DNA of 64,000 nucleotides from Phytopythium helicoides (taxonomy: Eukaryota > Oomycota > Peronosporomycetes > Pythiales > Pythiaceae). Shown one piece after another: positions 3,819 to 64,000 of the stretch; the first letter of the stretch is position 1, and the number at the start of each line of letters is the position of its first letter. The translations under genes and the position numbers were made by a program. The stretch lies in NCBI GenBank assembly GCA_024867545.1, contig JANFNE010000040.1, positions 413,266 through 477,265 on the forward strand, in the 5' to 3' direction. A model generated the notes under the pieces. It ran no database searches, was not told the origin of the DNA, and saw only the letters and a program-made list of their open reading frames with translations.

Positions 3819-3820
3819 AC

Positions 3821-3838: not shown

Positions 3839-3915
3839 TGTGCTCTGGTTGTTTGCTTCCTACAGGTCCGTCAGCTAACAAAAACAACCAACAAGTACGA
3901 GCGAGAGAGAGAGAG

Positions 3916-6150: not shown

Positions 6151-6190
6151 CAAGCCCGCCAACTGCAACTGGGTTGGTCACCAGCGGGCT
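6141..6190 (+). promoter_or_regulatory. Programmed -1 ribosomal frameshift signal, gag to pol
   Basis: TTTAAAC at 6141-6147 is a canonical X XXY YYZ heptamer and is in the right phase (gag codons TTA, AAC, then TAG stop). Slipping back one base enters the pol frame, which is open from 6120. After a 5-nt spacer, AGCCCGC (6153-6159) pairs perfectly with GCGGGCT (6184-6190); inside it CAAC (6160-6163) can pair with GTTG (6173-6176). Slippery site, spacing and downstream stem all fit a working -1 signal. Confidence 0.85.
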
Positions 6191-34600: not shown

Positions 34601-35500
34601 GCGCTTAATATATGCCTCCTGGCATTTGTTTTTCTTGTGATCACGGAGCTGCTCGTGGGTGACGAAAATCATCGAGCATTTGGGGCAACCATGCTTTCCC
34701 ACAAAGCGCTCAGGATTGGTGATGTACATCGCATGAGAGTTGTGGGACAGAATACTCATCGTGCTCTCGTATGACTTGGTTGATTCGATGACCCGACTGT
34801 ACTCCTGAGTCGCTTCGTCGAACGTGTACACCTCGATGTTTAGGTTGAAGCAGTCTTCCACGTCGCTGAGTTGATACAGCTCAACAGGTGGCAGACTCTT
34901 GTACAGCTTGGAAATGTCAAGCTGTCGAAGGTCACTCCTTTGTACGTTAGCCACCGCTTGACTGCCGCCTTGGTAGGAGCGACAAGTCGCTGACGCGAAG
35001 GCTTCTCTCCCTCGATGAGGTGGTACGCAATGCAGTAGAAGAGACACTTTGTCGATTGAGGTGGCTGGGAAAATTGATGACGTGGTCGGTTGGAGCGAAT
35101 GACCTCAGGGATCACAGCCTCCTCCGACCCAAGCTTGTGAGTGCGGTAGTAGAGAGTGAGCTTGAATGCGTCAACGGACTTGAGCATGTAAGACGATGTG
35201 GGGATATCGATGGTTTGGTCAAGCACAATGTTTCTGAGGTCGTCCATACTATGAATGGCATCTTTACGAGTGTTGATTGTTTGCGGGCCAGGGACTGAGC
35301 TGTCTTAAAAATCGAGGTGTTGTGGTTGGCGGGATGGATGTGTTCGTGTCTAGAGGATCATTGCGGTTGACAAGCGTGAATCCAATAGCCACATCAAACT
35401 TAAACGCATGCTTCTGGTGAAGGAGCACATTCTCAATGTGGTCGTAGAACTCATGTTCCTTGAGCCCTTTGTAAAAGTGAATCTCTGAGTGCTTGTTTTT
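31648..35500 (-). pseudogene. Protein-primed family B DNA polymerase with internal HNH motif
   Basis: Replicative polymerase of Polintons, about 1,250 codons across several frames. From the N-terminal side: a region shared by oomycete Polinton polymerases (35500-34900; CLFYCIAYHLIEGEKPSRQR), a C2H2 finger (CPKCSMIFVTHEQLRDHKKN), Exo I (LVYDFEAI), Exo II (GFNSGRYDMQLV), Exo III (WYNDLDVIPF), an HNH/endonuclease VII-like zinc motif (CGLCYEPL, SADRINNLRGHEDGN, CSSCN; about 33380-33200), then NITGGPSIIFNRF, motif A (GYDANALYLWC), motif B (KLVVNSPYGR) and motif C (YQEMDTDSGYI). The C-terminal part ends at 31648. Frame changes near 33920, 33200, 33010 and 32150 break it; the catalytic motifs themselves look intact. 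Confidence 0.85.
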
Positions 35501-40587: not shown

Positions 40588-43500
40588 ATGGCGAGCGCCT
40601 ACGTCAAGGCGGAGACGCCTCGCGGGTCCCGAGAGGGCGACAACCGCCTAGAAGTTGCGTTCGAGCGGGCGGCGCCTCCCCCGGGCGAGCCCGAGTCCAA
40701 GCAGACCAACGCCACCGACGGGCGCCTCGTGCCCTTCAAGGAGCTCTTCGGCTACGCGGACGCGACCGACAAGCTGCTCATGGCCATCGGAACGGCTGGC
40801 GCTGTCGGGACGGGCATTGCCCGACCAGGGCTTGTCCTGCTTTTCGGCAACGTCGTCAACTCGTTCAACTCGGTGGAGGACGCAGACGTGCTCGACGAAG
40901 TCAAGCCCGTGGCGCGCAACTTTGTGATCGTCGGAGTCTGCACCATGATCGCCGGGTTTCTTCAAGTCGGCTGCTGGTCCATCGCGGCCTCCAGACAAGC
41001 CAAGCGTATCCGTGCTGCGTACGTCACGCCATCATCCCAAGGAGATCGGGTGGTTCGACGTCAACGACCCCATGGAACTGTCTTCTCGCGTAGCAGCATC
41101 ATCTGTGGCTATTCAAGAGGGGATTGGAGCCAAAGTCAGCGATGCTATCCACTTCATCGCAACTGTGCTCGCTGGCATTGTGATCGGCTTCATCAAGGGA
41201 TGGAAGCTTGCTCTCGTCTTGCTTGCTGCGATCCCATTCCTTGCCGTGAGCGGCTTCATGGCCCGACGATCTATCGGGCAGGCAACTCAGAATGGTATCG
41301 CTGCTTACGGGAAGGCGGGCGCTGTTGCTCAGGAGTCACTCAGCAACATTCGCACCGTGCACATGTTCAACGCTGTGGACCAGTTCGTCGACCGATATTC
41401 CGCATCACTTGAGGAATCGACTCGTGCTGGGATCAAAAAGTCGCTTGCAGTGGGCGTTGGGATGGGAACCATGCAGTTCTTCCTCTTTTGCACGTATGCA
41501 CTCGGCTTCTTTGTCGGTGCGGTGTTCATTGCAAACGACCAACTCGACGGGAATGCCTGCACAGGCTCCGGCTGTTATGACGGTGGGCGAGTGCTTACCA
41601 TTTTTTTCGCAGTATTGATGGGATCTATGGCTCTCGGACAAGCAGGACCGTGTATCCAAGCCATCTTCTCAGCTCGAGCTGCCGCATACGACGTGTTCGA
41701 GGTCATCCGACGCCCCTCACTCATCGACCCCATCAACAAAGAAGGAAAAACACTACCCAAAATCGCAGGACGCATCGACATCCAAGCGGGTCTCCTTCGC
41801 ATACCCTTCGCGACCAGAAGTACAAGTCTGCAGCAACTACTCGCTCTCCATCGCAGCCGGTGAGACCGTCGCTCTCGTTGGACCCAGTGGCAGCGGAAAA
41901 AGTACCGTCATCTCCTTGCTCGAACGATTCTACGACCCCACTCGCCGGAGCCGTCAAGATCGACGGAGAAGACATTCGCAACCTCAACGTCCGCTGGCTG
42001 CGACAACAAGTCGGGTTGGTCGGACAGGAACCCGTGCTGTTCGCCACGACCATCATGGAGAACATCCGGTCGGGTCGACCCCGGAGCCACCGACAGCGAG
42101 GTCGTGGAGGCTGCCAAGATGGCGAACGCTTTCTCCTTCATTTCCGAGTTCCCCGAAGGTTTCTCGACCGAGGTTGGTGAACGAGGCACGCAACTGTCCG
42201 GTGGTCAAAAGCAGCGCATCGCCATCGCGCGCGCCATCATCAAGAACCCGCCGATCTTTGTTGCTTGACGAAGCCACCAGTGCGCTTGACACGGAGAGTG
42301 AGCGCATCGTGCAAGAGTCTCTGGACAAGTTACTCGCGGGTTCAAAGCGGACGACGATCATCGTGGCTCATCGCCTGTCGACGATTCGTGGAGCGGATCG
42401 CATCGCTGTTCACAGCAATGGTCGCATTGTGGAGCTTGGTTCTCACGACGAGCTGATCAGGATTCCGAACGGACATTATGCTCTATTGTTGGCTGCGCAG
42501 GATCAGGCTGCGAAGAAGGCGAAGGAAGATGCTATCGAGTCGCTGGATACTTTCCAAGTTGATGTAGGGAACGATACACGATCACGTGGAGCTTCGCGCA
42601 AATCCAGTCACTCTAGTATGCGTGAGGCCATACTCAATAAGATCGAAACCGACGATAGCGACTCTGACACTGCAGTTGATGGTGAAGAGATCGAGAATGT
42701 CCCAAGCTCTCGCATTTGGAAACTCAGTGCTCCAGAGTGGAAGTTCATGGTGATTGGAGGGGTTGCTACGATTGTGAATTCGGCAGTGTTTCCATCTTGG
42801 GGGTTTTGTCTAGCAAAAATCACGACTCTTTTCTTCGACTACAGCAAGACCAAGCCACGAAATGCTCCACGACATGCGTATATGGGTCGCCGTTCTACTG
42901 TCGATTGCAGTTGCAGTCGGGACTTCAAATGTACTCCAGCGCTACGGCTTCGGTGTCACTTCTGAGAGACTCATTGCTCGAGTTCGGCGTATGACTTTTA
43001 GTGCGATGCTCCGGCAAGACGTCGGATGGTTCGATTCCAAGCGGAACTCATCTGGAGCACTCATTTCTCGCCTAGCTACGGACTCAGCTATCCTCCAGGC
43101 TACGACTTCAGACTTTCTGTATCAGAAACTTGTCCAAATCACGACACTGAGTATTGCGCTCGCGATCGCGTTTGCGTACAGTTGGCAAATCACACTCATC
43201 ATGTTTGCAACCATCCCCTTAATGGTTGTCGGAACATACTTTCGATTTAAACAAGTCGGCGGGAAGTTGACGGACAAGAAGCACAACGATGCTGATGCTG
43301 CGCTGGATCACTGCTCTCCGAGGCGATTGATGCGATCCGTACAGTCGCTTCTTTCAGCATGGAGCAGGATCTCACGACGCGTTATGTGCAATACCTTGAA
43401 GTTTCTGATCACGAGGACCGCGGTGAAGCACTCACAGCCGGTGCGGCCTTCGGTTATTCTCAAGGCATCAACTTTCTCTCAGTTGCTTTTGTCTTTTACA

Positions 43501-44522
43501 TCGGCGCTATATGGGTATCCAACGGACATATCAACTTCAGTGACATGTTTGTCGCTTTGATGACACTAATGATGTCAACTTTTCTCGCTCGGAATGGCAT
43601 CCCAAGACGTCATCGACTCCAGCAAAGCCAAACGAGCTGCCATCAACGTCTTCTCCATCATCGACAGAGTGCCACCCATCGACGCCACAAACAACTCCGG
43701 AAAACAACTACACAACATCCAAGGTCACATCGAGTTCCGAAACCTACAGTTCACGTACCCGTCGAGACCCGACTCACAAGTCTACTCCAATTACTCGCTC
43801 AGCATCCAACCGGGACAACCGTCGCGCTCGTCGGAGCCAGCGGCAGCGGCAAGTCCACCGCCATCTCGCTGCTCGAGCGCTTCTACGACCCGACCGCCGG
43901 CTCCATCACGCTCGACGGCACCGACATCCGCGAGCTGAGTCTGCCGTGGCTGCGCGACCGTATCTCACTGGTGAGCCAGGAACCCGTGCTGTTCTCTGGT
44001 ACCATCGCAGACAACATTGCGATGGGTCGAGCCGCTGGTGTCAGTGGAGGAATCGGAGGAGGAGGATCCAGTATGGGTCGTAGTGAAGTGACTCGCGAAG
44101 AGATCGAGGAAGCCGCGAAGCGCGCCAACGCCTACGACTTCATCGTCAACTTCCCCGACGGTTTCGACACGGACGTGGGCGACCGTGGCGCACAGGTGTC
44201 CGGAGGACAGAAGCAGCGCATCGCCATCGCGCGCGCCATCCTGCGCGACCCAGACGTGCTGCTGCTGGACGAGGCCACGAGCGCGCTGGACAACGAGAGC
44301 GAGCGTGTGGTGCAGGCGTCGTTGGACGCGCTGCTGGCCGCCAAGAAGCGCACGACCATCGTGGTGGCGCACCGGTTGTCGACGGTGCGGAACGCGGACG
44401 TGATCGCGGTGACGAGCGGTGGCGAGATCGTGGAGCGCGGGAGCCACGAGCAGCTGATGCGCAAGCAGGACGGCATCTACCGTCGTATGGTGGAGCAGCA
44501 GGCGAGTGCTCCTAGCGAGTGA
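40588..44522 (+). pseudogene. ABCB/MDR-type ABC transporter (full, two halves), frame-broken
   Basis: Full P-glycoprotein-like exporter of the plasma or organelle membrane, about 1,300 codons, start ATG 40588 in good context (CTCCATGGCG). Layout is TMD1-NBD1-TMD2-NBD2. TMD1 pieces: TDKLLMAIGTAGAVGTGIAR, KEIGWFDVNDP. NBD1: Walker [10 protein letters not shown] (about 41880), signature [15 protein letters not shown] (about 42195), Walker [14 protein letters not shown]2: MLRQDVGWFDSKRNSSGALI. NBD2: Walker [10 protein letters not shown] (about 43835), signature [15 protein letters not shown], Walker [14 protein letters not shown]-loop [10 protein letters not shown]. It would export lipophilic compounds using ATP. 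At least seven one- or two-base frame changes (near 41023, 41800, 41910, 42065, 42250, 42850, 43310, 43590) break it although motifs are conserved, which suggests assembly indels or recent decay. Confidence 0.85.
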
Positions 44523-45690: not shown

Positions 45691-47205
45691 ATGGCGATCG
45701 CCTCCCAAGCCAACACGGACGAGATCTACTCGGAGGCCATGTCGCCTGCCAACAACAACAAACAACCCCGCGAGCACCTTCGACGAGGCCAACAAGGCCG
45801 CCGCCAGACGACTCAAGCCAACGCCATCCTCTACTCGAGCATCCTCATCGCGCTGCTACAGCCCTTCCAGAGCGGATGGTCCACCTCGCAGCTCAACCTC
45901 TCGCAGTTCAGCGACACGGACGAGTGCAACGCCGACCCCATCGTGCCAGGCACGTGCCTCATGTTCCCCGGACACTCCAAGCTCGAGTGGACGTTCGCCG
46001 TCAACGCGTGGATCTTCGGCGGCATGGTCGGCAGCATGACGTGCGGACACTTCAGCGACCTGTGGGGCCGCAAGAAGCTGCTCTTCGTCAACTGCTTCTT
46101 CATCATCGTCGGCGCCGTCATCCAGATGTCCGTGTCCAACGTCTGGCCGTTCGCCGTGGGTCGCCTCGTCTCGGGAATCGCCTCTGGAGCCGCCACCGGC
46201 ACGCTCGGCGCGTACGTCAACGAGCTGTCGCCGCCGCACATGCGCAACATCCTGGGTCTCGGTCTGCAGATCTCGGTCACCATCGGCATCTTGTTCCCGG
46301 CCATCACCTTCTTCTTCGCTAACACGAGCAGCGGCTGGCGGTACCTGGCGGGATTCCCCATCATCCTGGCCGTGCTCTTCTGGTGTTTGCTCCGAAGTTC
46401 GCTGTCGAGAGTCCCGCGTGGCTGCTCATGAAGAACGCCGCGAGGAGGCCAAGCAGGTCATCGCGCGTCTGTACGGCGAGGAGAACGTCTACACGGTGCT
46501 GTCGTGGCTCGAGGCGAGTAACAAAGCCGAGCGATGCCGAGCTGGGCCAGCCGCTCATGGAGACGACGACCCAGAAGGAGTCGCTGTTCTCGCCCAAGTA
46601 CCGCCTGCAGCTCGCCAGCCGCCGTGCTGCTCTCGTGCTCGCAGCAGCTGTCCGGTATCAACGCCGTCTTCTACTACTCGGGAGACATCTTCAAGGACGC
46701 CGGCATCTCTGACCCGCGCGTCGGCACGCTCATCATCGACTTCATCAACATCTGGCCCGCCTTCTTCACGGGGATGCTCGCCGTGCGCTTCGGCAACCGC
46801 AACATGATCCTATGGGGTCTCGCAGGCATGTTCGTCATGTCCGTGCTCATGACTGTCGCCAACCTCGTCGACGTGTCGGCGCTCTCCATCGTCTTCACGG
46901 CGCTCTACGTCATCGCGTTCGGCGTCACGCTCGGTCCGCTCGTCTTCGTCATCACGGCCGATTTGTTCCCGGACGAGGTGCGCGCCTCGGCCACGTCCAT
47001 CGGCATCGGCTGCAACTGGCTGTGCAACCTCATCGTCGGTGTCGGGTACCCGTACGTGGCGGACGCGTTGGATGACTGGAGTTACGCGCCGTTCGTGGTG
47101 CTGCTGGCACTCTTCTACTTGTTGTCGCTCAAGCTGGTGCCGGAGACGTCGGGCAAGACGTCCGAGGAGGTGTTGGCGGAGTACGAGGAGCGTCGTCGTC
47201 GCTAA
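45691..47205 (+). pseudogene. MFS sugar (hexose-type) transporter, frame-broken
   Basis: About 500 codons, start ATG 45691 in a perfect CCACCATGG context. Twelve-helix sugar porter family: SGWSTSQLNLS near helix 1, LWGRKKLLFVNCFF (loop 2-3 motif), VGRLVSGIASGAATGTLGAY, YVNELSPPHMRN, then VESPAWLLMKN (the PESPRWL-like loop 6 motif), CSQQLSGINAVFYYSGDIFK (helix 7 QQLSG), ADLFPDEVRASATS and LVPETSGKTSEEVL (C-terminal PETKG-like). It would move hexose across the plasma membrane. Four small frame changes cluster at 46385-46620 in the central loop; both halves are otherwise intact. As in the ABC gene, this could be a sequencing error in a live gene. Confidence 0.88.
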
Positions 47206-47785
47206 TTAGGTGTTGTGTAATACAATGTCGAGATATTCTTTTGCAGACTTTGTCAAAAGACCGTACGCTGCTGAGCTTTGTGATTGTGAAAGCAACAGTG
47301 ATGGAGCGAATTTAGTGGATTGTATGGGTGATTTCCTGGCAGCGGTTTCGCAGATACCGCGAAGGAAATTGTCGATTCTAGATCACGAGAGTAGATATAG
47401 CTCAGTTTAGAATCGGCAACGCGGAGCGCAAGCCCGCCACGCCACGCCCCTGATCAACAATTTGCCCCAAGAGATTGCTAGAAACCAATATATACAGATT
47501 GTAGAACTCTCTGAGCAGTGGCTTTTTGAGTAGTCATCAAGTTCTTTCAGTCAGCATTTTCCCTCAGTTCTGGAGCGGCTCGTTTTTCCCCCGTACGCGT
47601 ACATTGGAAATGCTTGAGTTCAGGGTAAGGACGACTGAGGACGACTGACGATCAACTATGGATATGGATGAGTGATTGTGAGACGGTTAACCTTTCGGCT
47701 ATACGGGAATGAGTACCTACTTGTCCGTGTGTGTGCCTTTCTCGACACCACTAATACAGATGGCGCTGTGCGCTCCTAGAGCCGA
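47206..47785. other. Region between convergent sugar transporter and Fanzor
   Basis: No protein gene supported. It lies 3' of the Fanzor reading frame, the side where TnpB/Fanzor guide RNAs and the element end are expected, so on the minus strand it is the place to look for a guide RNA. No clear element end was found by eye. Confidence 0.5.
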
Positions 47786-49406
47786 TTACCGGAATGCTGG
47801 TCGTGTTCGCGTCGTCGAAATGCTGAGAATGCGCCCATGCCCTCGCAGCTTGCTCTTGAGCAGCTCGAGAATGTTGATGGCCGCGTTGGCGTCGCGGTTC
47901 AATACTGGGCTGTGCACTCGGCATTCTCGCAGCGAAGAACAGCGTGGCAAACCTCCACACGGAGGGCGCCACGAGACGTATCGGGTGGAACTGCTTTGCC
48001 ATTGATTCGCCGTCGCTTGGGTCGTTCGACTCCTCTTGGGTATACTAGTTTCGGGTAGCGAACTTGAGCGAGGCGTTGGTGACACCGCGAGCAGAGCTTA
48101 CTCGTCATGAACACGTTCATGCTAATCACCAGGGCCCGCTTCTTCAGGGCCGCTTTCAGCTTTTTGACAGGGGATGCTGGATGGCCGCGGATGCCACTCC
48201 CTCCACTCCAGTCACCGTATGCTACGCAGTTGCGCACACTCACAGCCGGAACAACACGTTCAGCAATAGCATCGATCGCAACGCGCGCCATTCTTTGCCG
48301 ATAAAAGCGCCACTTCTTATACTTGTGTTCCTCGCTGAATCGCAAAAGGAACGGCAAGTGTTTCCAAAAGTAGGCAAGCCGCTTCAGGTATGAAGTGTAG
48401 CTTGACGTCTTGAAAGATGGCATCTCCTTGATAACCAGCGCATACTCCGCGTGTTGCTGCTTCTGAGATGTGTGGAAGGCGTTGAAGCGATTGAACCCTG
48501 CCAAATGGTGATACTCGCGCGAGGTTACACTGATCACTTCGACGGCTTCTCAGCATTTCGAGAGGTAATCTTTGGCCGACGTATCCAGTGCGGGAACCCA
48601 CCAGTCCTGCTAGCTCGTCCGCGCCGTCGACGACGCCGGGCAGACCGTCGACGAGTACGTGGGATAGTAGCATCCTTGAGCAGAACTTCTCGAGCGGCAG
48701 TACACACGGCCCGCATCCCTGGGTCAATACCCACGAGCATCTGTGGTTGTAATTCGGAGGAATCTGCTCAGAATCATCTCCAGAAGCACTGGCTCGAGTG
48801 TAGTAGTGAACCGAAGCGCTGTATCCGTCGGTGGAGATGCTATTAGCAAAGAGATGACTGGCATAAGCGTACTTTTCTTCCACCGAGAGGGAACGGAACT
48901 CTGCAGTTGATCGTAAAGGCGAGTCTGCGCGCATAGTCTCCAAATGCTCAATCGAAAAAGCCGTCCGCATCACAGTCCATTTGTTCTTCGAGAATGACCG
49001 ATAAGAGAGCTCAAGGCCGGGGATGCGCCACTCATCGAGGACATTGTGTCCATCTCGGACGCGAATGCGCTGGTTAAAACCCGGCTAGGGTCGAGCCGTT
49101 GATTTGAATATGAGCGCCGATATAGGATCGAGAGACTGGGAAAATGGAGAAAGCTTTCACTCCCTTTTCGCATTCCACTAGCTCATCCGAGCTTCCACAG
49201 CGACTTGAATTCCCACGTCAGCAGCACGTAGAAATTCAGGTTGTTCTCAATGTTGTCTGGCCACGGTATCGTCTGCTCACTCCACGGCTGCCCTCCTTCT
49301 GAAAGAATGTCACGCATCTGTAGAGACTCCACCAGCGACGTCTCTCGGATGTTGAAACAGGACGCAACGACTTCGTTGACCAACCGCTTTTTCGCCTTCT
49401 TCTCAC
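47786..49406 (-). pseudogene. Fanzor (eukaryotic TnpB relative), C-terminal three-quarters
   Basis: Relative of transposon TnpB nucleases, which cut DNA guided by RNA. Visible parts in order: FSIFPVSRSYIGAHIQING, IPGLELSYRSFSKNKW, RuvC-I GIDPGMR (about 48715-48735), a helical insert (HEYALVIKEMPSFKTSSY-like region), YGDWSGGSGIRGHPASPVKK (RuvC-II region; the usual Glu is not obvious), FMTSKLCSRCHQ, the second zinc pair CENAEC and RuvC-III NRDANAAINIL (about 47875-47905). Stop at 47786. Frame changes occur near 49190, 49075, 48735, 48530 and 47905; the last turns the expected Trp codon before NRD into a stop by one missing G. The segment ends at 49406, where Gypsy element 2 is inserted; the N-terminus is at 62397-63041. 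Confidence 0.85.
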
Positions 49407-50383
49407 TGTGATGAAGCGCTGCAGAATCAGCCCGAGCATTCACTCCTGCAGAGGCACCTCAGCGTCCTTGAGACGCGCGCATACTTGGCCTCAGTATTGA
49501 AGTCATTCTCTAGGATAAAATATAGCTCCTTAGACCTCTCTGGGGGAAGTACCCCTAGAGAGGTACCCCTGTTCCCTTTTTGGGGATCAGGGAAGAGTTG
49601 GTGTGGGCCACACCGCTCAACAAAGACGGGCTGGCCTCTGACTGGCTTCCCGTGGGTTCGTTATCAGACCTCTATCACCAGAACTGCAAGGATAAAAAAG
49701 TAGAGGTAGCAGAGACAGTAAGACTTTCAATACAGACTTCCGCTATCTCCCTCTATCGCGCGCAAGGAAGAACAAGCTCTCCAGAGAGGGAAACCTCTTT
49801 GGGGCTTGAGGAGGTCAACCGCGCGTTGCTCCAAGGCCAACACCCGATCGGTAAGTCACGCAGTGGCGTGTACATTACTGGTTGGTTCCATATTTCTCGG
49901 CCCAGTGCTGGACGATCGCTTTGAGTGTGGCGACACGTCTGGCATTGGTGTCCGACTTCATATTCTGTCTGAGGAAGGTCCCGCGGAGCCTCCTCGGCTA
50001 ATTTCATCCGCGTTTTCGGCTGTGGCGGTTTAGCAGAGCCCACAGCGTCATTACTCATCTGCCGACGGGTTCCCTAGCCTGAAAAGGTTAGCGGAGCCAT
50101 TGTGTGTACTAATATCGTTTGTTTGTTCAGGAGAAGAGAGGGGAAGCGCCGTCGCCTGCCTGGTCGTCGGCTCCTACGCGCGCGTTTAGAACTCCTGGTC
50201 CCCCGGACGGAACCAACGGGGATCACAACGCTCCGGTACTGACCAAGCGGGCCAAGTCAGCGTCTCCCCCAGGGAGATCAAGACCGAAGCTCGCTGCGGA
50301 GGGCTGAGATTACTCGCCCAAGGGTGAGACTACTCCCCTAAATCCGCCTATCGACCCGTCATGGAGGGCGCCGCATCATCACA
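49407..50383 (+). repeat. 5' LTR of element 2
   Basis: Starts TGTGATGAAGCGCTGCAGAA and ends CGCATCATCACA, followed by GC and the primer binding site. The last part contains an ATG (50361) whose frame runs through the primer binding site into the gag leader. Confidence 0.93.
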
Positions 50384-50385
50384 GC

Positions 50386-50403
50386 TGGTGCGCATGCCCG
50401 GAT
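50386..50403 (+). other. Primer binding site of element 2
   Basis: TGGTGCGCATGCCCGGAT, identical to that of element 1 (3821-3838), two bases after the LTR. Confidence 0.8.
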
Positions 50404-53400
50404 CGGGAGTTAATGCGCGTGAGGAACCACCAAGCGACCAGCAGAGTGCATCTGGTGCACCTGCTGCTCAAGAAGAGAAGATCGAAGTCGCAAGAGGAAG
50501 CGCGACAAGAAGAAGAGCATCAAGAGAAGGTGAAAGTCCAAGCAATCGTGTCCTCGAGAGTTACCTGCACCTGCGCCGTCTGGAGAAGCTCCGGGCTCCG
50601 TTCTGGGGCCTGTCGATGGTCTCCCGGCACAGCAAGGTGCTGTTCAAGTTGAAGTTACCTCTGCAGATGTCTACCGTGATGCCCAACGGGCGTCGGATCT
50701 CGCGCTAGTCGGCGCTGAGTCATCCTCGACTGAGTATCTCGTCGGCGGTCGCGCTGCGGAGTTCGCGTCAGCTACCTACGCTCGAGCAGTCGCACACGCG
50801 ATGGACTCACAACCTCAAGTTGCTCAATGGCCTTGGATGGCTCGTCAGGAGCCGCCCGCCGTACATCAGCTACTGCTGCAAGACGTCCCAGTCAGGAGTC
50901 TGCTGGATACCGACGTCGTCGAGTACGTGGAATACCTCAAGATGCGATGGCAAGGCCGCAACCGTGGGCTGAACTACCCACGAGACCCCGTGTACTCGCA
51001 TGTCAGCCGAGAACGCATCACGGAATGGGTCGCCGCAACTGTTCGACTCAACCACTACTTGCGCGAGCGCGTCGAGCGATCGCCTGGGGCGTTGTGGCTC
51101 TCCATGCTTCGCATCCGCCATGTGTGCCTCCCCGTGCCGTCCGACTTGCGCGCGTTCAACGTGCCTCTGGGTGCGCTCTCTGCACCCGAGGTACTCGTCG
51201 TGCTGCAGACGGCACTAGAAGAAGCTGGTTACGAGTTCTTCAACGTGGCACCGGAATGGTTTTCGCACCCAGAGACTCGAGATACTCCTGTGGAAGTGGT
51301 TCGCGGCGAGGTTCAAGACTTGCTTGCGGCCATGGAACCGATGATGAAGATCTGGAGGTGGGTCATCGAAGATGCAACCTGCACCATGTCGTCGGTGGAA
51401 CGACCGTTCATCCACGTGGAGGACATCCCGATGTGGAGATGCTCGAAGTCGACAGCGAAGGAGACGTGCTCATGATTGAAGGTGCCAAGGAGTTCCTGAC
51501 CAACGACCTGATTCTGCGCGTCCGCACTGTGAGTGAGCGGCGAGCCGGAAGCGACTCGACGGACTCGGGGAACATCATCCCCAGGAAGAGACGCCCCTCA
51601 AGGCCTTTTGGACCCGGCTCCGATATGTCGTTGCCAGCAGGATTCGGCTCGAACGCGTCGTCAGAAAGTCCGTTCCAGTCCCCAGTGTTATGGGATCACG
51701 AGATGCCTGAGGAAGCAAGCGGAAATGGTTTCGCATCTACAGGAGCTGTTTTAGGCCCTGCGGTAATGATGGCGCAAGCCGTCATGACACCAGCGACAAC
51801 TCAGTACGCGCCGGATGCACTAATCCTCACTGAGAAGCACTATGACGCGCCTATCGAAGCAGCCACACTGCCAGCCGTGCCAGAAACCCCACCGAGAGCA
51901 GTTACTCCCCCTCACGGAGTCGAGTTTCAGTCCTGCACCATCTGTTGCTGACACTGTCAGTGAAGAGGCCCGGCAAATCCAAGCTCTCCAGCGACAAATC
52001 GCTGAAATGCAGCTGCAGAGCCAATTGGCTCTAGAGCAACAACGTCTGCAAGCGGAGCAAGAGAGGCAGCGGTTCGCCCAACAGCAACAAGTGCTGCAGG
52101 AGGAGGTGTCGAAGCTTCAACTGGCCAGCACTCAAGATCACCAAGCGTGGAGTGCACAAGTCCGTCAGCACCAGAGTGAGCTGCAACAGCAAGCGCAACA
52201 GGCTGAACAGCGGCACGAGGCCGAGAAGACTCACATGCGGGAAGAGTTCAAGCGGATGACGACTACAGGCTACAAAGAGTTCACGAACGCGCAGAGGAAA
52301 AGCACCAAGCACCCTGCGAGCGGCCGAGAAAATCCGCGTAGAACGTGAAGAGCTCCTCAAGCAACAGCTACAGCAGCAGATGCAACAACAACTGCGTCAA
52401 CAACAGCTGCAGTTTCAGCAACAGCAAGAGCAACTACGTCTGCAGCAAGAGAGCGAACGTCGTCAACGCGAAGCGGATCAACAGCGTCGCGACGCGCAAG
52501 CCAAGCGCGTGAAACAAGAGTTGGAGAGGCTGCGCCAGCAGCAAGCGAGCGTACAGCTGGCTCTGTCGACAGCGCCGCCCTCGTCGACTCCTCCGCCTAC
52601 AAGTGCTGCTGCCGCCGCGCCACCGCACGCCACGTACTCGACAAGCGCGTTCACGTCGGCGCCCTTTGGGACTCGCGCGGCTACCCCGATGCCCGCTGTG
52701 TCAAGCTCCGTCGCGTCTATATCCGGCCCGCCTGTGACTTCGGCGTTCGTATCGAGACCGTTCGGCAGTGCGTCAGCTACGTCGGCCGCCCCGGCTCAGA
52801 ATTTCCAGTCGACTACCGTCCCGTTCGGATACCGCGGGAGTGTCCCACCGTGGCACCCAACTTCAAGTGGGGGCTTTGGAGGTGGCAGCGGATCGTCGAG
52901 CGGGTTTGGAGGCGGAAGAGAGCCTTCTCGAGGAGCAATGGAGCAGAACTGCCTGCAGAAGGAAGTCCTTCGGGCGCCTCGAGTCAACCAGCGGCTGCAC
53001 AAAGCACCACGGCTCAAACCGTCGGGTTCCGGATGATGATGCCATTCAGCTCAATCACGTACTTCAAGGGAGATGGGCCGCTAGACGCTCGCAAGCGGTG
53101 GTGGAACGAGTTCACCTACACAGCGGACGCATGCATGTGGAAGCCTGAGGAGAGGTGCAAATACTTGCCGATGTGGCTGGAAGGAAGCGCTCACGCGTGG
53201 TACCGACAGCTCGCTCCGACTGACAAGCAGACATGGAAGATGTTATCAAGGAAGTTTTACGACCAGTTCTGCACAGCGTCGGACACGGCTATGGAGGAAT
53301 ATCTTGCAATGACACCTGAACGAGGCATCAAACCGCTGCACTTCCTGTGGAAATTGAACGCCGCTGCAACGAGAGCACAAAGTGGACACGTCTACAGCCA

Positions 53401-54150
53401 AGGGCCGTCAGAAGCATATCAAGAAGTTCCTGCAGAAGATCACTGACAAGGGCTCTGAAGTTTAATCTTGCTGGAAGATCGTTCTATTCAATGGACGAGT
53501 TTGAGGAGACGCTCAAGATGTACCACGAAGTCACCAACGGCACAGACGAACGGACGAAAGGCTCTACAGAAGCGAGACACCCAAGTCGGTGCAGTTCAAG
53601 AAACAAGAGCTCGTCCCAGGACGGTTTCGCCCCAAGGAAAGCAACCCAAATCGAGCCTACTGGGCTGAAGAGTCGCGCGACGACTATGGAGAGTACGATT
53701 CAGCTCTCGAGGAAGAGGAGTCCGAGGAGCAGGTATATGCCGCTCCCGTGTCCACTCAAGGACCAAGGAACTCATTCCACCAGCCAACCGGGTTCAATAA
53801 CCAAGGGAACCGCTACCAAGGAGTCAACCACCGCCAGGGGCGCAGTCGCCGTCAAGAACCGCCTGTGCAAAGTGCAAACGTCTCGGTCATTCTGCAGAAG
53901 CATGCTGGAACGACCTGCTGTGCGAGTACTGTGGTGAGCGCGGCCACCCAAGCGACCGCTGCTTTAAGAAGCCTCTCCCATGCATTGTCTGCGGGAATAC
54001 CCACACTGGAGGCTGCCCGATGTTCAAGGACATTGTCACTGCGATTCAAGCTGTGGCTGCGTCTGCAGCAGCACCGAAGCCTGCTCCATCGAATCCAAGC
54101 TCAACTACGCCAGCGACGCCTCCGCGCGTCAACCCGTCATCGTTAAACTA
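50391..54150 (+). pseudogene. gag: Gag region of element 2
   Basis: Long gag of about 1,200 codons across several frames. In order: leader (SQLVRMPGSGVNAREEPPSD), a globular N-terminal part (MDSQPQVAQWPWMARQEPPA; RNRGLNYPRDPVYSHVSRER), a Gln-rich coiled coil (51950-52560), a Ser/Gly/Phe-rich linker, the gag core (FKGDGPLDARKRWWNEFTYT; GSAHAWYRQL) and zinc knuckles including CEYCGERGHPSDRC (about 53919-53960). Frame changes near 51440, 51930, 52340, 53000, 53400 and 53880. The large N-terminal part is not present in the same form in element 1. Confidence 0.8.
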
Positions 54151-54419
54151 GGGCGCTCGCCAGATCGCGGGGGTCTGGTGCGTGTCGAGCGGAATCCCCT
54201 AGTAATGCGCGCGTTTGCATATGTCGGTCCCAAGATCACGGCCTCAACCGGCTACAGTAAGATCAACATGGACCATGCATCTGAAATCAGCACGCGGAAC
54301 CCCTCTACAGCAGCCTGTCACATGGCTACTCCTGAAGAGCAATCTGAACTTCCGGAGTTCGAACTACTACCTGGTCAACGCATGGGATGGTGGAACACCA
54401 TGAATCTGACGACAATCAC

Positions 54420-57400
54420 CACATGACGGCGATGGTCCGAGGTTCAGTGGGTTGACGAACCTACCCTGATCATGTTGGACACCGGGGCGACAACAAGCAT
54501 TGTAAGCCTGGACTTTGCACGCAGGTCCCGGCTCAAGCTCAAGTTCGACAGCAACTGACGGTGAACGGCATCGGAGGGAACGAAGACGAAGATAACGGCG
54601 AGAGCAAGGGTGAAGATAACGCTAGGGCTGAAGGTGGTGTATGTGATGAACGTCTGGGTGGGCAACATCGGTGAAGGAGTGAACTGCTTGCTGGGAATGA
54701 ACTTCATGTACGCGGCGGGAATACGGCTGAGTGTGCGAGAAGGTGCTGTGGAATTGCCAGATGAAGAGCGAATCCTACTCGTTGGTGGACCAAGGCAAGA
54801 GACATCAGGCTACGAACAGACTGTGGAGGCAGGCGAGTCAACCTGCTTGCGCGGGCGAGATCAAGATCGTTTCGGTGATCCCCCAGCTGCAGAAGCGAGT
54901 CGCAGAAGGTGCTCAACTGTGGGTGGCAAGAGGCGACGATTGGGTGACGCAAGTGGCTGGAAGTCGAGACAACGACCTGCTGTGATCCGGATTGCTAATA
55001 TCTCCCTGGAGAAGACAGTGTATCTGCCAAGGTATGTGTCAATTGCAGCAGTCGTGGAGAAGGGTCATCTACCCCGCACAGCCGGACGCTTTGTGCGTCC
55101 TGAGTCGATGAGGTATCGAGAGTGGAGCCAACTTGTGTATGAAAACACGCCGTCACCCGAGTTCCTAGAGCGTCGGTGGAACGCAGTACCTGCGGAGCCA
55201 GAGTGGCCAGAGCCTGTCAGATTCACACCGGAACGCATCCTGCTGAGATCAAATGAATTGCGAAGACTTAACAAGACGGCAGATGCGCCGGGTCAAACCG
55301 CGGGCATGGAAGGGTCAGCGTTTGTGGGGTACCACCAAAGCGGTCGAATCTCCTGAGTCGCCATGTGGCAAAACATCGGACTCCACAGTAGAGTCTGAGC
55401 GGGAAGACCCTGCAGAAGGTGATGAAAGCAGTCCAAGTGGTGTTCTAGAAGCGAATCTTGCGCGTGTGATGAGAGCTGAAGCAGACCAACCTGCAGAAGC
55501 GCCGACGGTATTTCTACGTGAAGGAGAGGACGCAATACTGCTACACGAGCTACGTGATCAGTTGGCAACGCTGCCGGATCTACCCGAACTGGCACCGTCT
55601 GCAGACATCGAAACGGCGGATGTTGGTACGCCGGGGAGACGTCCCCTGAGCAAGAAGACAAAGTCCGAGAGATCCTGCGACGACACAAGTGTGCCTTCCT
55701 TGGAGAAGGTAATGCGTTGCCGCCACCGGCTCGGGGCGTGACATGCGACCTCGATGTGCGCGGGGCGAAACCAATTGCCCAGCGTGCACGACGAGTACCG
55801 CCACAGTTTCTACGCAAGGTGTACGAGCTGCTGAAGAAGCTACTGGAGAGCGGATTGATTGAGTTCTCCGACTCCCAGTGGGCATCCCCCATCGTCATCG
55901 TGCTCAAGAAGAACGGCAAGGACATCCGACTCTGCATAGACTACCGGCTGGTGAATCAACTCCTAGAGCTGGACCTCTACCCGATGCCACTGATTGACGA
56001 CTTGCTGGACACTTTGAGGCCGTTATGTGGCTGGTCAGCCTTGATATGGCTAGCGGCTTCTGGGCCGTCCCACTGACCGACCGTGCGAGGAAGATATCGG
56101 CATTCATTTGCCCCCTCGGCCACTTCCAGTGGACACGGATGCCATTCGGCCTGAAGAACGCTCCGCTCGTGTACCAGCGCATGTTGGACAACTGCTTGTG
56201 GGGTTTTGTGAGGTTACCACCCGAACAGGAGGCTCAAGTCGATCCAGAAGTACTCGAATACTACCGGCTGAACCAGGACGCACTGCAGAGTGACTCGGAG
56301 GATGCAATCACTGCTGTGGATGGCAGTCAATCGACTGTCTTCCAAATCAATCGACCAGCGCCGCCCAAAATGGGACCGGTGCTCGGTCGCAGCAGCTATG
56401 TTGACGACGTCGCTTACGGTGCAAAGACGTGGGACGAGCTCTGTCAGAAGTTGGATGAGCTGTTGTACCGTCTACGATACTGGGGCATTTCGGTGAGCCT
56501 ACCCAAAAGCGTGTTCGGCAAAAGAGAGGTGGACTTCCTGTCGCACAGGGTGAGCCGAGAAGGCATTCAAGCGACGCCCAAGATTGCGAAGACCGTACGC
56601 GACCTACCATTTCCCTCCACACTCAAAGGAGTCCAGTCATTCCTTGGGAGCATAAACTACTACGCGAAATTCATTGAAGGCTTGCCTCAAATCGCGTCAG
56701 TGCTCTACGAGTTGACGGAGGAACAAGTGAAGGCGCAAGAAGGTCTCGAGAAGGCTAAGAAGGCGTTCGAGATGCTGAAGGAGAAGATAACCTCCACGCC
56801 GTTGCTTAAACACCCCGACAGAGCCAAGCCGTTTGCCATTATCATCTCATTCCAACGAGTGGGCAGTCAGCGCGGTCATCGCGCAAGACCATGACGGCAC
56901 GCTGTTCCCAGTACGGTTCACAGGAAGGGTGCTACACGGTGCAGAGCTCAACTACCCAGCTGCAGAGAAGGAAATCCTCGCGCTATTCCGCGCTGTCGAA
57001 GTTTACCACACGCTACTGCTCGGCCAGAAGCTGCAAGTCTACACCAGACACTCGACGTTGAGTTGGCTCTTCAAGTCTAAGTCGTTAAAAGGACGCTGCC
57101 ACCAATGGGCGACATGCTGTCGCCGTGGACAATGGAAGTGATTCAGCTGCAGAAGGATACCGACGGCCTGGCTGCTATACTAAGCGCCAGTATCACCCCG
57201 CGTGAACACCTTGACGAAGTCGTCCCACGACTTAGTCCCGCAGAAGGTGCTGCAGAAACCTGCACCCGCGGTCAGCATAGAAATGCTGGAGGAAGGCTAC
57301 AAAGGGTGGCTGTTGACGTTCGATGGCGCTGCTAAGCTCAAGTCCAAGGTAGGAAGTGCTGGCTACGTGTTGTGGAAGGTGCCGGAGTGGAAGATTGTGG

Positions 57401-59560
57401 AGGCTCGGGGCGACTATCTCACGGAGGACTCTGTAACGGTGAATGTAGCGGAATACCATGGGTTGATCAGCGGACTCAAGCTGGCCCTGGAGAAGGGAGT
57501 GAAAGAGCTCGTCGTAGTAGGTGACTCTCGACTGGCCATACAGCAGTCACAGGGCGTGATCAACTGTCACGACCCCAAGCTGACTCTCATGCTCACGCAA
57601 GTCCGCGCGCTACTGGAGAGATTTGATTCAGCACAGCTCATACACGTGAAGCGAGAATTTAATGCTGCGGCTGACCACGTGACTACACGTGTGTTGCAAA
57701 GTGCCGCCTCGCTCGAGATACGTGATTCTATGGAGCTGGAGCTGCTTGAAAGGACTAAATCGCCTGCTAGAGCGCTTGACCAAGCCGCCACGCCTGAGGA
57801 GGTGCTCAAAAGCTGCCACGGGTCGAAGAAACAACAGACAGCCACGCAGCCGACGTATTCGCGATGCAGACACGCTCTCGAGAGCGTATGGCCCAAGAAT
57901 TACCTGAGGGTGTGACCGAGGACATTGATGTCGCTGTAGAGACGCGTTGGGAACGCATTCGTGTGAACCAAGACGCGGAAGAGTCACTTCGGAGACTCAA
58001 ATCATATCTGCACGGCAATCGGGAGGAATTCACCCACAGGGAGATTCAGGAATTGGCCAAAGCTGCTGAACGTTTCGTCGTCGACGAGCGAGATGTGCTG
58101 TTCTACCTTCCTGCGACGAGCCCAAACGGCCACGACCAGAGCAAGACCACCCACGACTAGTTGTGCCACAAGAGCTTCGAAATGACCTGCCTCCAACAGT
58201 ACCATGAGGACAAGCAAGGAGGCCATCAAGGAATCCTGCGAACGTACGAACGCCTCAAGAAAGACTTTTACTGGGTCGGCATGTACGCCGACGTCGAACG
58301 CTATGTGAAGGAGTGCGTCGACTGCACAACTGCCAAGGGAGTACCTCGCAACCCTGGACCGTCACCAGGCAATTTGCTCGCTGAGGAGCCTTTCCAAGTA
58401 GTCTCAATGGACTTCGTGCTGCCACTGCCACGCACAGCCAAAGGCAACACAGCCTTGCTGCTGTTTCAAGATGCTTTTCTGGCTACGTAATGTGCAAAGC
58501 AATGAGCAGTACAACATCACAAGATGTTGCAGAGGCCTACGAGGAATGTGTTTTCCAACATTTTGGAGCGAGCTCGAAGTTGCGGCATGACCGCGATCCG
58601 CGGTTTATGTCCTGATGTGTTCGACAATTTAGAGAGCTACTTGGCAGTCAGCAGAGATCGACACTCGCCTACAGACCACAGGCGAACGGCCAACAAGGCG
58701 TTCAGGACAAACAGTGGTGCGAAGCATCCGGGCAAATATTGCGGAGGCAGACCAGAGCGATTGGGACGACATCGTCCGCCGCCTGATGTTCTGCATCAAT
58801 ACGTCTTTCGACTCTACCCGCAAAGACACTCCGTTTTATCTCGTCCATGGATGGGATGCGCGGACTACAGTCAAGGCTATGCTCGGCAAAGCGCCACGGG
58901 GCGTCGATGCAAGGACAGCCTATCTGTGGAGGATGAAAGTGCAGCGAGAATACGAGTATGCGAAGGCGTGGGCACGTGACCTACAAAAAGAAGCTAAGCG
59001 CAGCGGGCCGATCAGCAAACTGAGCTGTGGAAGGCTCTTTCGGACAAATTCAAGGAGGGGTTCGGCGTTGGAGACGCCGTGTGGCTTTATATGCCACGGG
59101 TGCAACCGGGCTTGAGCAAGAAGCTCGCCCATAAGTGGCATGGACCGTTCCGCATTGTCGAGAAGGACGCTGAATTTCGCTACAAGCTGCGGATCGAAGG
59201 ATCCGATTATCGCTTCTGCCCGTGGGTGCATGTGAGCCGCCTGAAGCCACGTTTATTGCACGAGAGTCGTCCGAAGGAGGTCCTGCAAGATGTCCCACAA
59301 CTGTTTGACTTTGATGCTGCTCTGTTGCCAGAAGATAGTTGGGTCGATGAAGAAGGTGGTGAGTACGAAGTCGAGAAGCTGTTGGATGTCCGCATGGTCA
59401 AGAAGACGCGCAACGCACGGCAAACCCGCGAGTATTGGTGAAATGGCAAGGTTACGACGACACAGAGTGGATGCCGGTGGAAAAGCTGAATTGTGGAAGG
59501 CTCCTGTACGAGTTCGACAAGGGCAAACCGCTCCAGAGCAAGATTTCGGTCAATGCAGTC
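54420..59560 (+). pseudogene. pol: Pol region of element 2
   Basis: Same domain order as element 1 but broken. Protease MLDTGATTSIVSLDFARRS (54472 on); RT with LCIDYRLVNQ, RMPFGLKNAPLVYQR and catalytic YVDD (56397-56408); the RT-linked RNase H (56830-57130); a second RNase H (LTFDGAAKLKSK, VAEYHGL, VVGDSRLAIQQ, FNAAAD; 57300-57690); integrase zinc finger (DKQGGHQGILR ... CVDCTTAKG), DDE core (SMDFVLPLPRTAKGNTALL; RHDRDPRFM-like sequence) and a chromodomain tail (YEVEKLLDVRM; VKWQGYDDTEWMPVEKL). Frame changes near 54560, 55350, 55720, 56030, 56860, 57110, 57690, 58160, 58480 and later. No single frame spans more than about 900 bp. Confidence 0.88.
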
Positions 59561-59928
59561 AGCAGATGAATTCGCTGGAACGCAAGGTGATGAAGACGAA
59601 CGGCAAGGTGATCGGCAGCGTCAATAGACGCAGTACTCACTCGAGAACCGGACAAACAGACGAAGAAAACACACAAAAATGCATGTAACGGGAGCCGAAA
59701 GGACCTGTCGCCCGAGTGGCATCCGATCCCCTGGCGGGATCTCGTCCTACGTGGACAGTGCCATGTTCGCTTTTTCAAGATTTCAAGTGACGTATGCAGG
59801 GATGAAGATGAAAGAGAAGACTGAAGACGAGCTTACGATGTGCTGGTCTGTATGAGAAGATGAGGTAAGAAAAGACAAGAGTGCAAGAGGCTGACTTTAT
59901 AGGAAGAATGTTCGGGCTACAAATGCAG

Positions 59929-61330
59929 CTAAGAAAACGCAACTACAACCAGGCGGTGCAAGCACGAACGACCTCTTGTGACGCGAAATGCTGGAAGACG
60001 CCTCGAGAAGTTAGCCGAACGACGTTGAACACGAAGATGGGGTAGTTGGAGGCGAATCATCCCGCGCTGGGATGCCGTCATCGCCATTGACAACGGAAAG
60101 ATCTTGAACTCCAGTTTCACCACTCTCTGCAGTTGATTTCTCGCCTTTCCTCCCTGGAGAGACTGCTCTATCGCCTTTTTGATGCAGCTTGAATCTCCAT
60201 CCAGCATCACCCACACAATGGTGAACAATCCTCGCTCTTGAAGGTGACTTCACAGATGGGAATGATGGCCACAGGAGAATCCTCTGTAGTGGTGGGCCGA
60301 CCAGAAGAGTCTGCAGAGCCACCTCGAATCGAGCGCGGAGACGGAGTGCGAAGAGAGTTACCACCAGTGCCGCCTTGAGCAGGGGATCCACCATCCGGGG
60401 ATGCAAACCAACTTGAAGGTGAGCCTGGAGGCGACGCCAACGGGACATACTCCAACGACGCAGCTTCAGCACCAAGAGCAGTGACGGAAATAATCGTCGA
60501 GTCTTGTGAGAGCTGGGTCCGGTCACACCGCGCATAACGCTGCAGCAATTCTTCAAGACGCGATCGGTGGCCGGTGACACGAGCATTCGACGTCAGATAC
60601 CGCATGAGACCGCTGGGGATGCTGGAGCGGAGCCTGCCGCAGCTCGTCGAAACAGCTGAAGGGTGTTCAGGAGACGCGAAGCAAAACCTTCCGAGCGCCA
60701 GTAGTTGAAGAGCAAGTCAGCAACGAGATGGTCATAACCAGCCGAAGGCTCAACGGCCCCCGGCGGCAAGCGATGACCCAACAGAGTGTCTTCCAGGTCC
60801 ACCGCGTCCAGCTCTTCCAAGAAGACGCACTCGTCCAGCGAGAAGCGCGAGATCGGGTGAAACACGCACGGACCGAACGGCGTGGAGTAGATGGCGTCGT
60901 CGCAGTTCGACTCGTCCAGCGGCACCAACAGCTCGCAGAACTTGCCGTGCGGGCCGACCGGTGAATCCTTGAACGTCTCGGGGCTCAGCTGGTTGACGCG
61001 AAGCAACGGGCGCATGCGCTGAGGCAATGGCGTCGCTGCCGCAGAGCTGCCGTCGCCACCACTCGCTGGAGAACCATGCGGGTCGCCGCCGCCAGCAGAG
61101 GCGCTGGGCTTCACGTCGTGGACGGCGGAGCTCGACCGACCGACTTGGACGTCGCCGCCGCTCGCTGCTGGACTGGATCGGCCAGCGCTGCTTGGAGATG
61201 ACGCTGCAGACGCGGAGCTGGCTCGACTTGACGGTGCACGTGGTGGCGCGCGCGTGGAGCGCTGCGCACGCGGCGGGCGCTGCGTGCTGCTTGGAGAACC
61301 GGCTTGCGACCGCGTCCCGCGCTTGCCCAT
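59929..61330 (-). pseudogene. Antisense gene of element 2
   Basis: Minus-strand frames next to the 3' LTR, in the same position and direction as the antisense gene of element 1. ATG 61330 opens 245 aa (MGKRGTRSQAGSPSSTQRPP, Ser/Ala-rich, then LDECVFLEELDAVDLEDTLL and DLLFNYWRSEGFASRLLNTL); the frame at 60605 continues (RLEELLQRYARCDRTQLS) and further pieces run to about 60011. Changes of frame near 60600 and 60230 may be indels or introns. I see no clear sequence identity to the 1,070-aa protein of element 1, although both begin Ser-rich and precede the same polypurine tract. Confidence 0.5.
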
Positions 61331-61403
61331 GATCGCGCTTCAACTTGGTTGGTCGCGTAACTCGCGAATCGCCAGATGGCTCGACACTCGCTGCACCCGA
61401 CCA

Positions 61404-61413
61404 ACGGGGCGGT
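61404..61413 (+). other. Polypurine tract of element 2
   Basis: ACGGGGCGGT immediately before the 3' LTR; shares GGGGCGGT with element 1. Confidence 0.65.
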
Positions 61414-62396
61414 TGTGATGAAGCGCTGCAGAATCAGCCTGAGCATTCACTCCTGCAGAGGCACCTCAGCGTCCTTGAGACGCGCGCATACTTGGCCTCA
61501 GTATTGAAGTCATTCTCTAGGATAAAATATAGCTCCTTTGACCTCTCCCGGGGAAGTACCCCTAGAGAGGTACCCCTGTTCCCTCTTTGGGGATCAGGGA
61601 AGAGTTGGTGTGGGCCACACCGCTCAACAAAGACGGGCTGGCCTCCTTGACTGGCTTCCCGTGGGTTTCGCTTATCAGACCTCTATCACCAGAACTGCAA
61701 GGATAAAAAAGTAGAGGTAGCAGAGACAGTAAGACTTTCAATACAGACTTCCGCTTTCTCCCTCTATCGCGCGCAAGGAAGAACAAGCTCTCCAGGGAGG
61801 GAAACCTCTTTGGGGCTTGAGGAGGTCAACCGCGCGTTGCTCCAAGGCCAACACCCGATCGGTAAGTCACGCAGTGGCGTGTACATTACTGGTTAGTTCC
61901 ATAATTCTCGCCTCAGTGCTGTACGATCGCTTTGGGTGTGGTGACACGCATGGCATTGGTGTCCGATTTCATATTCTGTCTGAAGAACGTCCCCGCGGAG
62001 CCTCCTCGGCTAAGTTCATCCGCGTTGTTGGCTGTGTTGGTTTAGCAGAGCCCCACAGCGTCATTACTCATCTGCCGACGGGTTCCCTAGCCTGAAAAGG
62101 TTAGCGGAGCCCATTGTGTGTACTAATATCGTTTGTTTGTTCAGGAGAAGAGAGAGGGAAGCGCCGTCGTCTGCCTGGTCGTCGGCTCCTACGCGCGCGT
62201 TTAGAGCTCTTGGTCCCCCGGACGGACCAACGGGGATCACAACGCTCCGGTACTGACCAAGCGGGCCAAGTCAAGCGTCTCCCCAGGGAGATCAAGACCG
62301 AAGCTCGCTGCGGAGGGCTGAGATTACTCGCCCAAGGGTGAGACTACTCCCTAAATCCGCCTATCGACCCGTCATGGAGGGCGCCGCATCATCACA
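61414..62396 (+). repeat. 3' LTR of element 2
   Basis: Matches the 5' LTR with scattered substitutions and short indels (for example ctctgact / ctccttgact). Ends CATCATCACA, followed by the TCAC target duplication. Confidence 0.93.
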
Positions 62397-63041
62397 TCAC
62401 TAATTGGCGCGTCATCGTCCAAAGTGCCGAAACGGACGAACACGTACTCTCTGAGCCGCCGCTTAAAATTGTCCCGAATCATAAGTGTAGCGTTTACCTC
62501 CATTTGCTGTCGCATCGCACTTTTCAGGTACGTGTATCCAATGTGATTGGAGACTTCTTCGAGACCAGCACGGCGCCTTTCATTGCGATACGTCTCGATG
62601 CTCTCCCACAAAAAGTCTGTCCTTGGCAGCAATGCTGTGAGTATAGGCAGTCGATGCGACACCGGATAAGCAGTGATCGAAGAATGTTTTGTCATAGACT
62701 GGTAGCTGGAGTCTGTTCTCGAGGCAGCGGAGGGTGTGCTGATTCACAAGATGCCATGTCTCCATTTGCACCTGCTTCATATCGCGCACAGGACAGCTGA
62801 ATTTCCTCCACCAGGCGGGCATCCGAGCACACGGACGAGAGACGACAACATGCAGTTCGCAGCTCCTTGCCGATCGCAAACGCTGCTTCGAGAAGAGTTC
62901 CAGCAGATACCTTACGCTTTGGCTTCTCAGGTCGTACTTGTGTCTTGGTATTCTCCGAGCAGACTTTCTTGGCCTGTTGAGACGCCTTGGCTCGCTCCCC
63001 TTGACAGCGGAGCTGCTCCGCAGGCTGACTCCCGACGCCAT
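62397..63041 (-). pseudogene. Fanzor N-terminal quarter
   Basis: Start ATG 63041 (MASGVSLRSSSAVKGSEPRR), with a core promoter match just upstream. A basic N-terminus is followed by the conserved-looking part: RDMKQVQMETWHLVNQHTLR, CLENRLQLPVYDKTFFDHCL, then after a frame change at a five-A run (about 62608-62612) LWESIETYRNERRRAGLEEV, GYTYLKSAMRQQMEVN and FKRRLREYVFVRFGTL. The frame reaches TCAC at 62397-62400. Joined to 49406 with one TCAC it reads DDDAPISEKKAKKRLVNE without a break, which proves one gene was split. Together with 47786-49406 the gene is about 2.26 kb, near 750 codons, in the range of Fanzor1 proteins. Confidence 0.82.
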
Positions 63042-63114: not shown

Positions 63115-63720
63115 GTGGAGCGACGCTGCGGGAAGAACTTGGGACTTTGCGCTGTCACCCACGATGCAAACAATGAGCGCGCGGCGAAGCCCGAGATATC
63201 TTGCAGGTCGACTCGACCGCGTCGACGCCTAGAGAGTCCTCATGACGCTCGATTTCTGGCTGGCTCTCCATGTAAAGGAACTCATGCAGATCCATACTCG
63301 AGCGATCTCTCGATGGAGTTGCGACTGCTCAGACATCTCGTCGAGGTCATCGATGAACATTCACACCAATTTGATCGATCATGGCGCGAATGTGAATTCC
63401 CATGGCGCTATGTGACGGACACCACTGATGCTTGTTGGATCCGGTGTGATTTGGATAGAGAACGCTATTTAGTTCAGCACAGAGCTTACATCGACGCTGT
63501 CGGCTATAGTCAACGAAGATCTCTCGCTTGAACAGTCCTCCACATGCAGTAGCCCAGTGCAATTTCGTTTTGCGTGTGAACGTCTACACGTTCATGCATC
63601 AATCCGGTATTCAAGTATAACCGTTTCCTTGAACATGGAGGTTTGGTTTGATTTGAAGCTCTGTGGAGAACAGGGGGTTTGGTTATCAATCCCATAAGCG
63701 AGCGACTGCACTCTCAGTTT
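63115..63720. other. Unrecognised, possible broken coding sequence
   Basis: A plus-strand frame (63115-63531) and minus-strand frames overlap; none has known motifs. I cannot tell which, if any, is real. This region may hold the far end of the mobile element that carried Fanzor. Confidence 0.25.
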
Positions 63721-64000
63721 CTACCCAAAGCGGTTAGCGAGCGACCCAATGTCGAACCACTCATTAACCCAGTTGTCCACCCATTCGCTCGCGACGGGTT
63801 TTATCATTCGTGCAACAAGGTCATCAGTGAGGTTGTTTGGAGGAAAGCAAGGTGTAATGACCGATCCGTAGTCAGAACACGTCATGTACGGTTTTTCGAC
63901 GGCTAAAGAAGCGGTGTGGACCGACAGCACCTTGTACGAAGAATTGCCGTCCACCCACGCGTGCTCAATAAGGTTAATCTCGGGGATCGCAGAGCTACTT
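63721..64000 (-). pseudogene. Unrecognised minus-strand frame running off the window
   Basis: Open frame from the window end to a stop at 63721: IPEINLIEHAWMDGNSSYKV, then EKPYMTCSDYGSVITPCFPP and a Trp-rich end (SEWVDNWVNEWFDIGSLANR). The first motif faintly recalls the DLNPIEHLW box of Tc1-type transposases, but the rest does not support that. Function unknown. Confidence 0.35.

Follow-up and report, generated by a model that had tools for sequence, protein, structure and literature searches.

A Fanzor1 gene split by a Ty3/Gypsy retrotransposon near a contig end of an oomycete-like genome

The hallmarks of Fanzor proteins, as given in the accessible part of PMC10711439, are a DPG motif and a Glu six residues ahead of a zinc finger. 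The analogue for a system in which RNA from the element 3' end guides the cutting of DNA is SpuFz1, described in the available portions of PMC10432273 and PMC11423790, the former of which also describes ghost elements without a Fanzor reading frame. Fanzor1 families of Pythium ultimum, Phytophthora and Albugo, some of them borne by Mariner elements, are described in PMC3627910; thus, oomycete Fanzor1 proteins are already known, and the statement of the original prediction that Fanzors are established in oomycete transposons agrees with that publication. Among the titles seen in the literature on Fanzors of oomycetes and Phytophthora, none concerned a retrotransposon nested in a Fanzor; that on Fanzors together with nested retrotransposons was represented by a review on cargo integration. 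As far as these partial sources extend, the nested copy described here is a new example within a family whose presence in oomycete transposons has been published (PMC3627910).

The stretch of DNA analysed, here called the window, is the final 64 kb of contig C36 (positions 413266-477265 of 477265) and ends where the contig ends; the genome assembly comprises 49.06 Mb in 100 contigs. The window contains a minus-strand Fanzor1 gene that is split by a Ty3/Gypsy element. The C-terminal part (approximately residues 217-759) is located at 47776-49406 on the minus strand and encodes RuvC-I, the zinc finger and RuvC-III in a frame broken by single-base indels. The motifs that had been predicted for the minus strand (GIDPGMR, CSRC, CENAEC and NRDANAAINIL) are all present, spread over three reading frames. 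The N-terminal part (approximately residues 1-217), placed at 62397-63041 by the original prediction, was verified there on the minus strand by alignment to the 759-residue sister protein encoded on contig C57. The intervening element of 12,990 bp (49407-62396) is antisense to the Fanzor gene, has the ends TGTGATGA...TCATCACA and is bordered on either side by TCAC (left copy 49403-49406, right copy 62397-62400). A Gypsy element with these borders and duplications had been proposed, and both its LTRs (5' LTR, 49407-50383; 3' LTR, 61414-62396; plus strand) and the duplication were found.

The uninterrupted sister on C57 of the same genome contains an open frame of 774 codons and is 98.6% identical to the window copy. 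The DNA identity was 98.6% over 1,724 columns to the left of the insertion and 98.6% over 631 columns to the right, the latter match becoming 97.0% over 840 when extended into the adjoining repeat. The left and right matches overlap by exactly 4 bases and the element is the sole interruption, with the insertion point at approximately residue 217 of the sister protein. When joined over one TCAC, the window flanks reproduced the empty site in C57 exactly across the 56 bases compared, and that in C70 with 3 mismatches. Since the same joined sequence exists as a real paralogue on C57, the in-frame junction is confirmed. The continuous frame expected upon removal of the element was therefore obtained over the single TCAC junction, but elsewhere the coding part of the window copy differs from the sister by 10 single-base indels, of which 7 are left of the insertion and 3 right.

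The plus-strand coding pieces of the retroelement, assigned by Pfam families, span 52850-59441 and comprise gag (52850-53446), RT (56025-56894), RNase H (56833-57141), RVT_3 (57202-57915), integrase H2C2 (58161-58490) and SH3 (59079-59441), the last under its Pfam cut-off. Between the integrase and the 3' LTR, two antisense open frames of 245 and 191 aa were observed on the minus strand (60011-61330), for which no Pfam match was obtained at E 0.01. The window also contains another Gypsy-like element (3769-11999; type assigned by eye) with open frames of 793 and 1,941 aa, and minus-strand open frames at 32013-35047 that by eye resemble pieces of a Polinton-type DNA polymerase. At other sites of the LTR family, 4-bp duplications were identified by eye in 10 of 11 cases (4 paired sites plus 6 of the 7 with a single LTR), the exception being a site in C65 without duplication. 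These results bear on the possibility that mis-assembly joined two Fanzor halves to a retroelement. The contig end is indeed repeat-rich, with dispersed relatives of both sides, and could have favoured such a chimera; however, both flanks reach the identical base of a single gene, the 4-bp duplication there is exact and of the length usual for the LTR family, and complete ends are seen in the LTRs. A chimera is thus considered extremely improbable, and the split is taken as real.

The assignment to TnpB/Fanzor made in the original prediction was borne out and narrowed to Fanzor1. In a search of PDB sequences the C57 sister protein matched SpuFz1 with an E-value of 8e-9, followed by PpFz1 (E 0.003) and GtFz1 (E 0.38), and its score against Pfam TNB was 25.2 bits, slightly under the cut-off of 26.3. 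Structure prediction, which had been suggested for the RuvC core, was run on the sister. The AlphaFold2 model, built from 17 sequences and of middling confidence (pLDDT 64, pTM 0.56), was nearest in fold to Fanzor1: all 7 Foldseek matches at E < 0.001 were Fanzor1 chains, and the best E-values of other families were 0.025 for Cas12 and 0.045 for Fanzor2. Fanzor2, TnpB or Cas12 as nearest kin was rejected on the PDB sequence search together with this ranking. The named protein relatives of the sister are mostly from oomycetes, 11 of 16 being named Phytophthora and 1 of 16 Nothophytophthora.

The DPG motif of RuvC-I (GIDPGMR) is present in both the window copy and the sister, and the zinc finger (CSRC, CENAEC) and RuvC-III Asp (NRDANAAINIL) are present in the window copy. 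The RuvC-II Glu column, six residues before the CxxC of the zinc finger, is occupied by V in the window copy and E in the sister. The catalytic E was found in 23 of 23 relatives fitting the motif pattern (14 of the 16 database proteins and, within the same genome, 9 frames at 9 of 13 scanned loci), and the 4 loci of the same genome outside the pattern, judged by eye, have E too. The V is possibly a consensus error. The family is thus Fanzor1, but the window copy need not be a nuclease.

Alignment of the sister protein with the window was broken into six frame segments, with a seventh that overlaps. With C70 as the outgroup and only columns common to all three copies counted, the window branch acquired 7 substitutions and 8 single-base indels whereas the C57 branch acquired 11 and 0 (Fisher p 0.007; left piece alone, p 0.006). 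As a rule, pseudogenes collect fewer indels than substitutions. Breaks of a similar kind were found in neighbouring sequences. A host MFS sugar-transporter gene (45691-47205, plus strand) contains out-of-frame stretches, and its alignment with a paralogue having an open frame of 509 codons revealed 7 coding gaps, 6 of which have lengths not divisible by 3, together with one further gap of 32 past the coding part. The Pfam domain of this gene is divided over two open frames that share one phase and are separated by an out-of-frame stretch. A host ABC-B transporter gene (40588-44522, plus strand) is also distributed over several phases, in a comparison restricted to proteins of other species and with introns possible; many phyla were among the relatives listed in the transporter search. 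In the retroelement, the RT piece is 99% identical to that of a copy on C50 over 274 aa, and the open frame is 1,888 aa at C50 versus 298 aa in the window. In contrast, C36 contains a single open frame of 1,941 aa at window positions 6174-11999.

Since the window reaches the contig end and similar breaks occur in the transporters and the retroelement, it seems likelier from the sequence that the frame breaks are consensus errors near the contig end rather than decay. The alternative is that the Fanzor gene, the retroelement and the transporters truly carry the indels, as a decaying and transposon-rich contig end would. A true pseudogene would account for the several frame breaks together with V in place of the catalytic Glu; repeats flank both sides, and the MFS gene could be dispensable given its paralogues, which have diverged by 10-18%. 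Also arguing against errors, the MFS frame returns to its original phase after the out-of-frame stretches, and most of the coding indels of the Fanzor gene are in very short runs or no run at all, with few in long homopolymers. However, the number of indels on the window branch equals or exceeds that of substitutions, against none on the C57 branch, and the same type of break recurs in unrelated sequences of differing age, both of which speak against decay. A true pseudogene is on balance rather unlikely, and consensus error is the explanation retained here. The original prediction that the gene was inactivated by the nested insertion is consistent with an interruption of 13 kb, from which the split copy has presumably lost its function; the remaining lesions are indistinguishable from consensus error.

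The LTR pair differs by 36 substitutions in 975 sites, a raw K of 0.038, and the Fanzor copies differ by 17 in 1,717 and 6 in 722 (K 0.010 and 0.008). Because the insertion must postdate the divergence of the Fanzor copies, the LTRs overstate its age. LTR dating was dropped on finding this K larger than that of the copies although the insertion is younger, and the description of the locus as dated could not be upheld given the conflict between the LTR and paralogue clocks. In the alignment of the LTR family, the pair shows 37 differences, of which 21 are private to the 3' LTR, 9 are private to the 5' LTR and 7 have both states in other copies of the family. The private differences of the 3' LTR are concentrated within columns 478-619 (15 of 21), and 7 of the 9 private to the 5' LTR are in consecutive columns, probably the result of a misaligned indel. 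The 8 private differences remaining outside this patch and block would match the Fanzor divergence. The excess of LTR differences may be due to gene conversion or local error. The only safe bound is that the insertion is younger than approximately 1% K, and no per-year rate was used. The term fossil was likewise overstated, since a 98.6% identical and uninterrupted sister with an open frame resides in the genome.

The non-coding 3' end of the Fanzor element (47688-47775, minus strand) is common to the copies on C36, C57 and C70 and to a fragment on C34, with AGCCGAAAGG at the border of the kept end, and is a candidate for the 3' part of a guide RNA. The 3' motif was found in 4 of 14 Fanzor sequences, all from the subfamily of the window copy; the end motif at 0-1 mismatch was restricted to three copies, with two more matches at 3 mismatches. 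No excess RNA structure was detected at this 3' end (fold z-score 0.35), and no Rfam match at gathering score within window 38000-64000. With its nuclease presumably lost, by the insertion and the V at the catalytic Glu, and its 3' end kept, the split copy could be read as a ghost locus that supplies only guides, its flank immediately beyond the element (approximately 47668-47687) directing intact Fanzors at other loci of the genome, although we regard this as very unlikely.

A search of 9.9 kb around the C57 copy found no exact inverted repeats of >=12 bp spaced 1.2-6 kb apart. A Mariner-borne Fanzor of the PUl-1/PUl-4 type, with terminal inverted repeats and TA duplications as portrayed in the available part of PMC3627910, was accordingly rejected for the C57 copy. 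Elsewhere in the genome, a Fanzor frame was observed at L015 2229-8266 (contig C84) within an element whose inverted repeats start with TA and span 35 bp or more and which has a frame that by eye is transposase-like, resembling the published Mariner-borne Fanzors. On the 5' side of the window gene lies a piece of another dispersed repeat family (63149-63749, plus strand). Two Fanzor copies, at window 63149-63271 and at approximately 6547-6662 of L009, adjoin the same position of this family, and the repeat pieces beside the C36 and C57 Fanzors are 82% alike compared with 98.6% for the Fanzor parts.

At least 150 places in the genome, that of the window included, match the 212-residue C-terminal Fanzor piece (scoring covered 150 of 181 candidates from the first look); the genes are fewer than the places because some show up in pieces. 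According to the accessible part of PMC10711439, the copy number of Fanzor transposons can run into the hundreds, and the copy count here therefore fits what is known. Three loci (L052-L054, on contigs C1, C32 and C10), sampled from a single group, contain Fanzor-like open frames of 662 codons, with DNA identities of 96.5-96.8% over approximately 2.6 kb, and the group looks to have been amplified recently. In this group His replaces the first Cys of the zinc finger, as it does in a relative from Globisporangium ultimum (P0138).

In the history proposed, a Fanzor1 element present in few copies in an oomycete-like genome carried the gene of a RuvC nuclease of the RNA-guided type, which, judging from the literature, would bind a guide RNA from the element 3' end and cut matching DNA. 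The window and C57 copies diverged first, to a K of approximately 0.01, after which the Ty3/Gypsy element integrated antisense at about codon 217, duplicated TCAC and left the N-terminal and RuvC lobes on opposite sides of the insert; the insertion, the duplication, the empty site in the paralogues and this sequence of events are shown by the data. The single-base breaks in the last ~24 kb, within the Fanzor gene, the retroelement and the two host genes, are most readily attributed to consensus errors near the contig end. The reading as a whole, insertion of a Gypsy element into a Fanzor1 gene with frame breaks arising from consensus error, is considered likely. The nesting is real and the gene family correct, the clock is unusable and the pseudogene details are doubtful. 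The locus allows an interrupted copy of a Fanzor1 element to be compared with an uninterrupted one from the same genome. It also cautions that LTR dating and pseudogene calls can mislead near contig ends. With so many Fanzor-matching places, the genome itself may be more rewarding to study.

The retroelement is like Ty3/Gypsy elements in its TG...CA LTR ends, short target duplication and order of gag, RT, RNase H and integrase. It differs in having an additional RVT_3 RNase H-like domain and, before the 3' LTR, the antisense open frames lacking a Pfam match. Extra RNase H domains occur in other Gypsy lineages. Compared with Fanzor1, the window copy differs in being split and in the V at the Glu column, and the element differs from SpuFz1 (PDB 8gkh) and from the oomycete families, so far as PMC3627910 presents them in part, in that the surroundings of the sister showed no terminal inverted repeats. 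It resembles SpuFz1 in the DPG motif of RuvC-I, the zinc finger and RuvC-III and, for the sister, in the fold and the Glu six residues before the CxxC, and it resembles the families in the same portion of PMC3627910 in its location in a mobile element within an oomycete-like genome.
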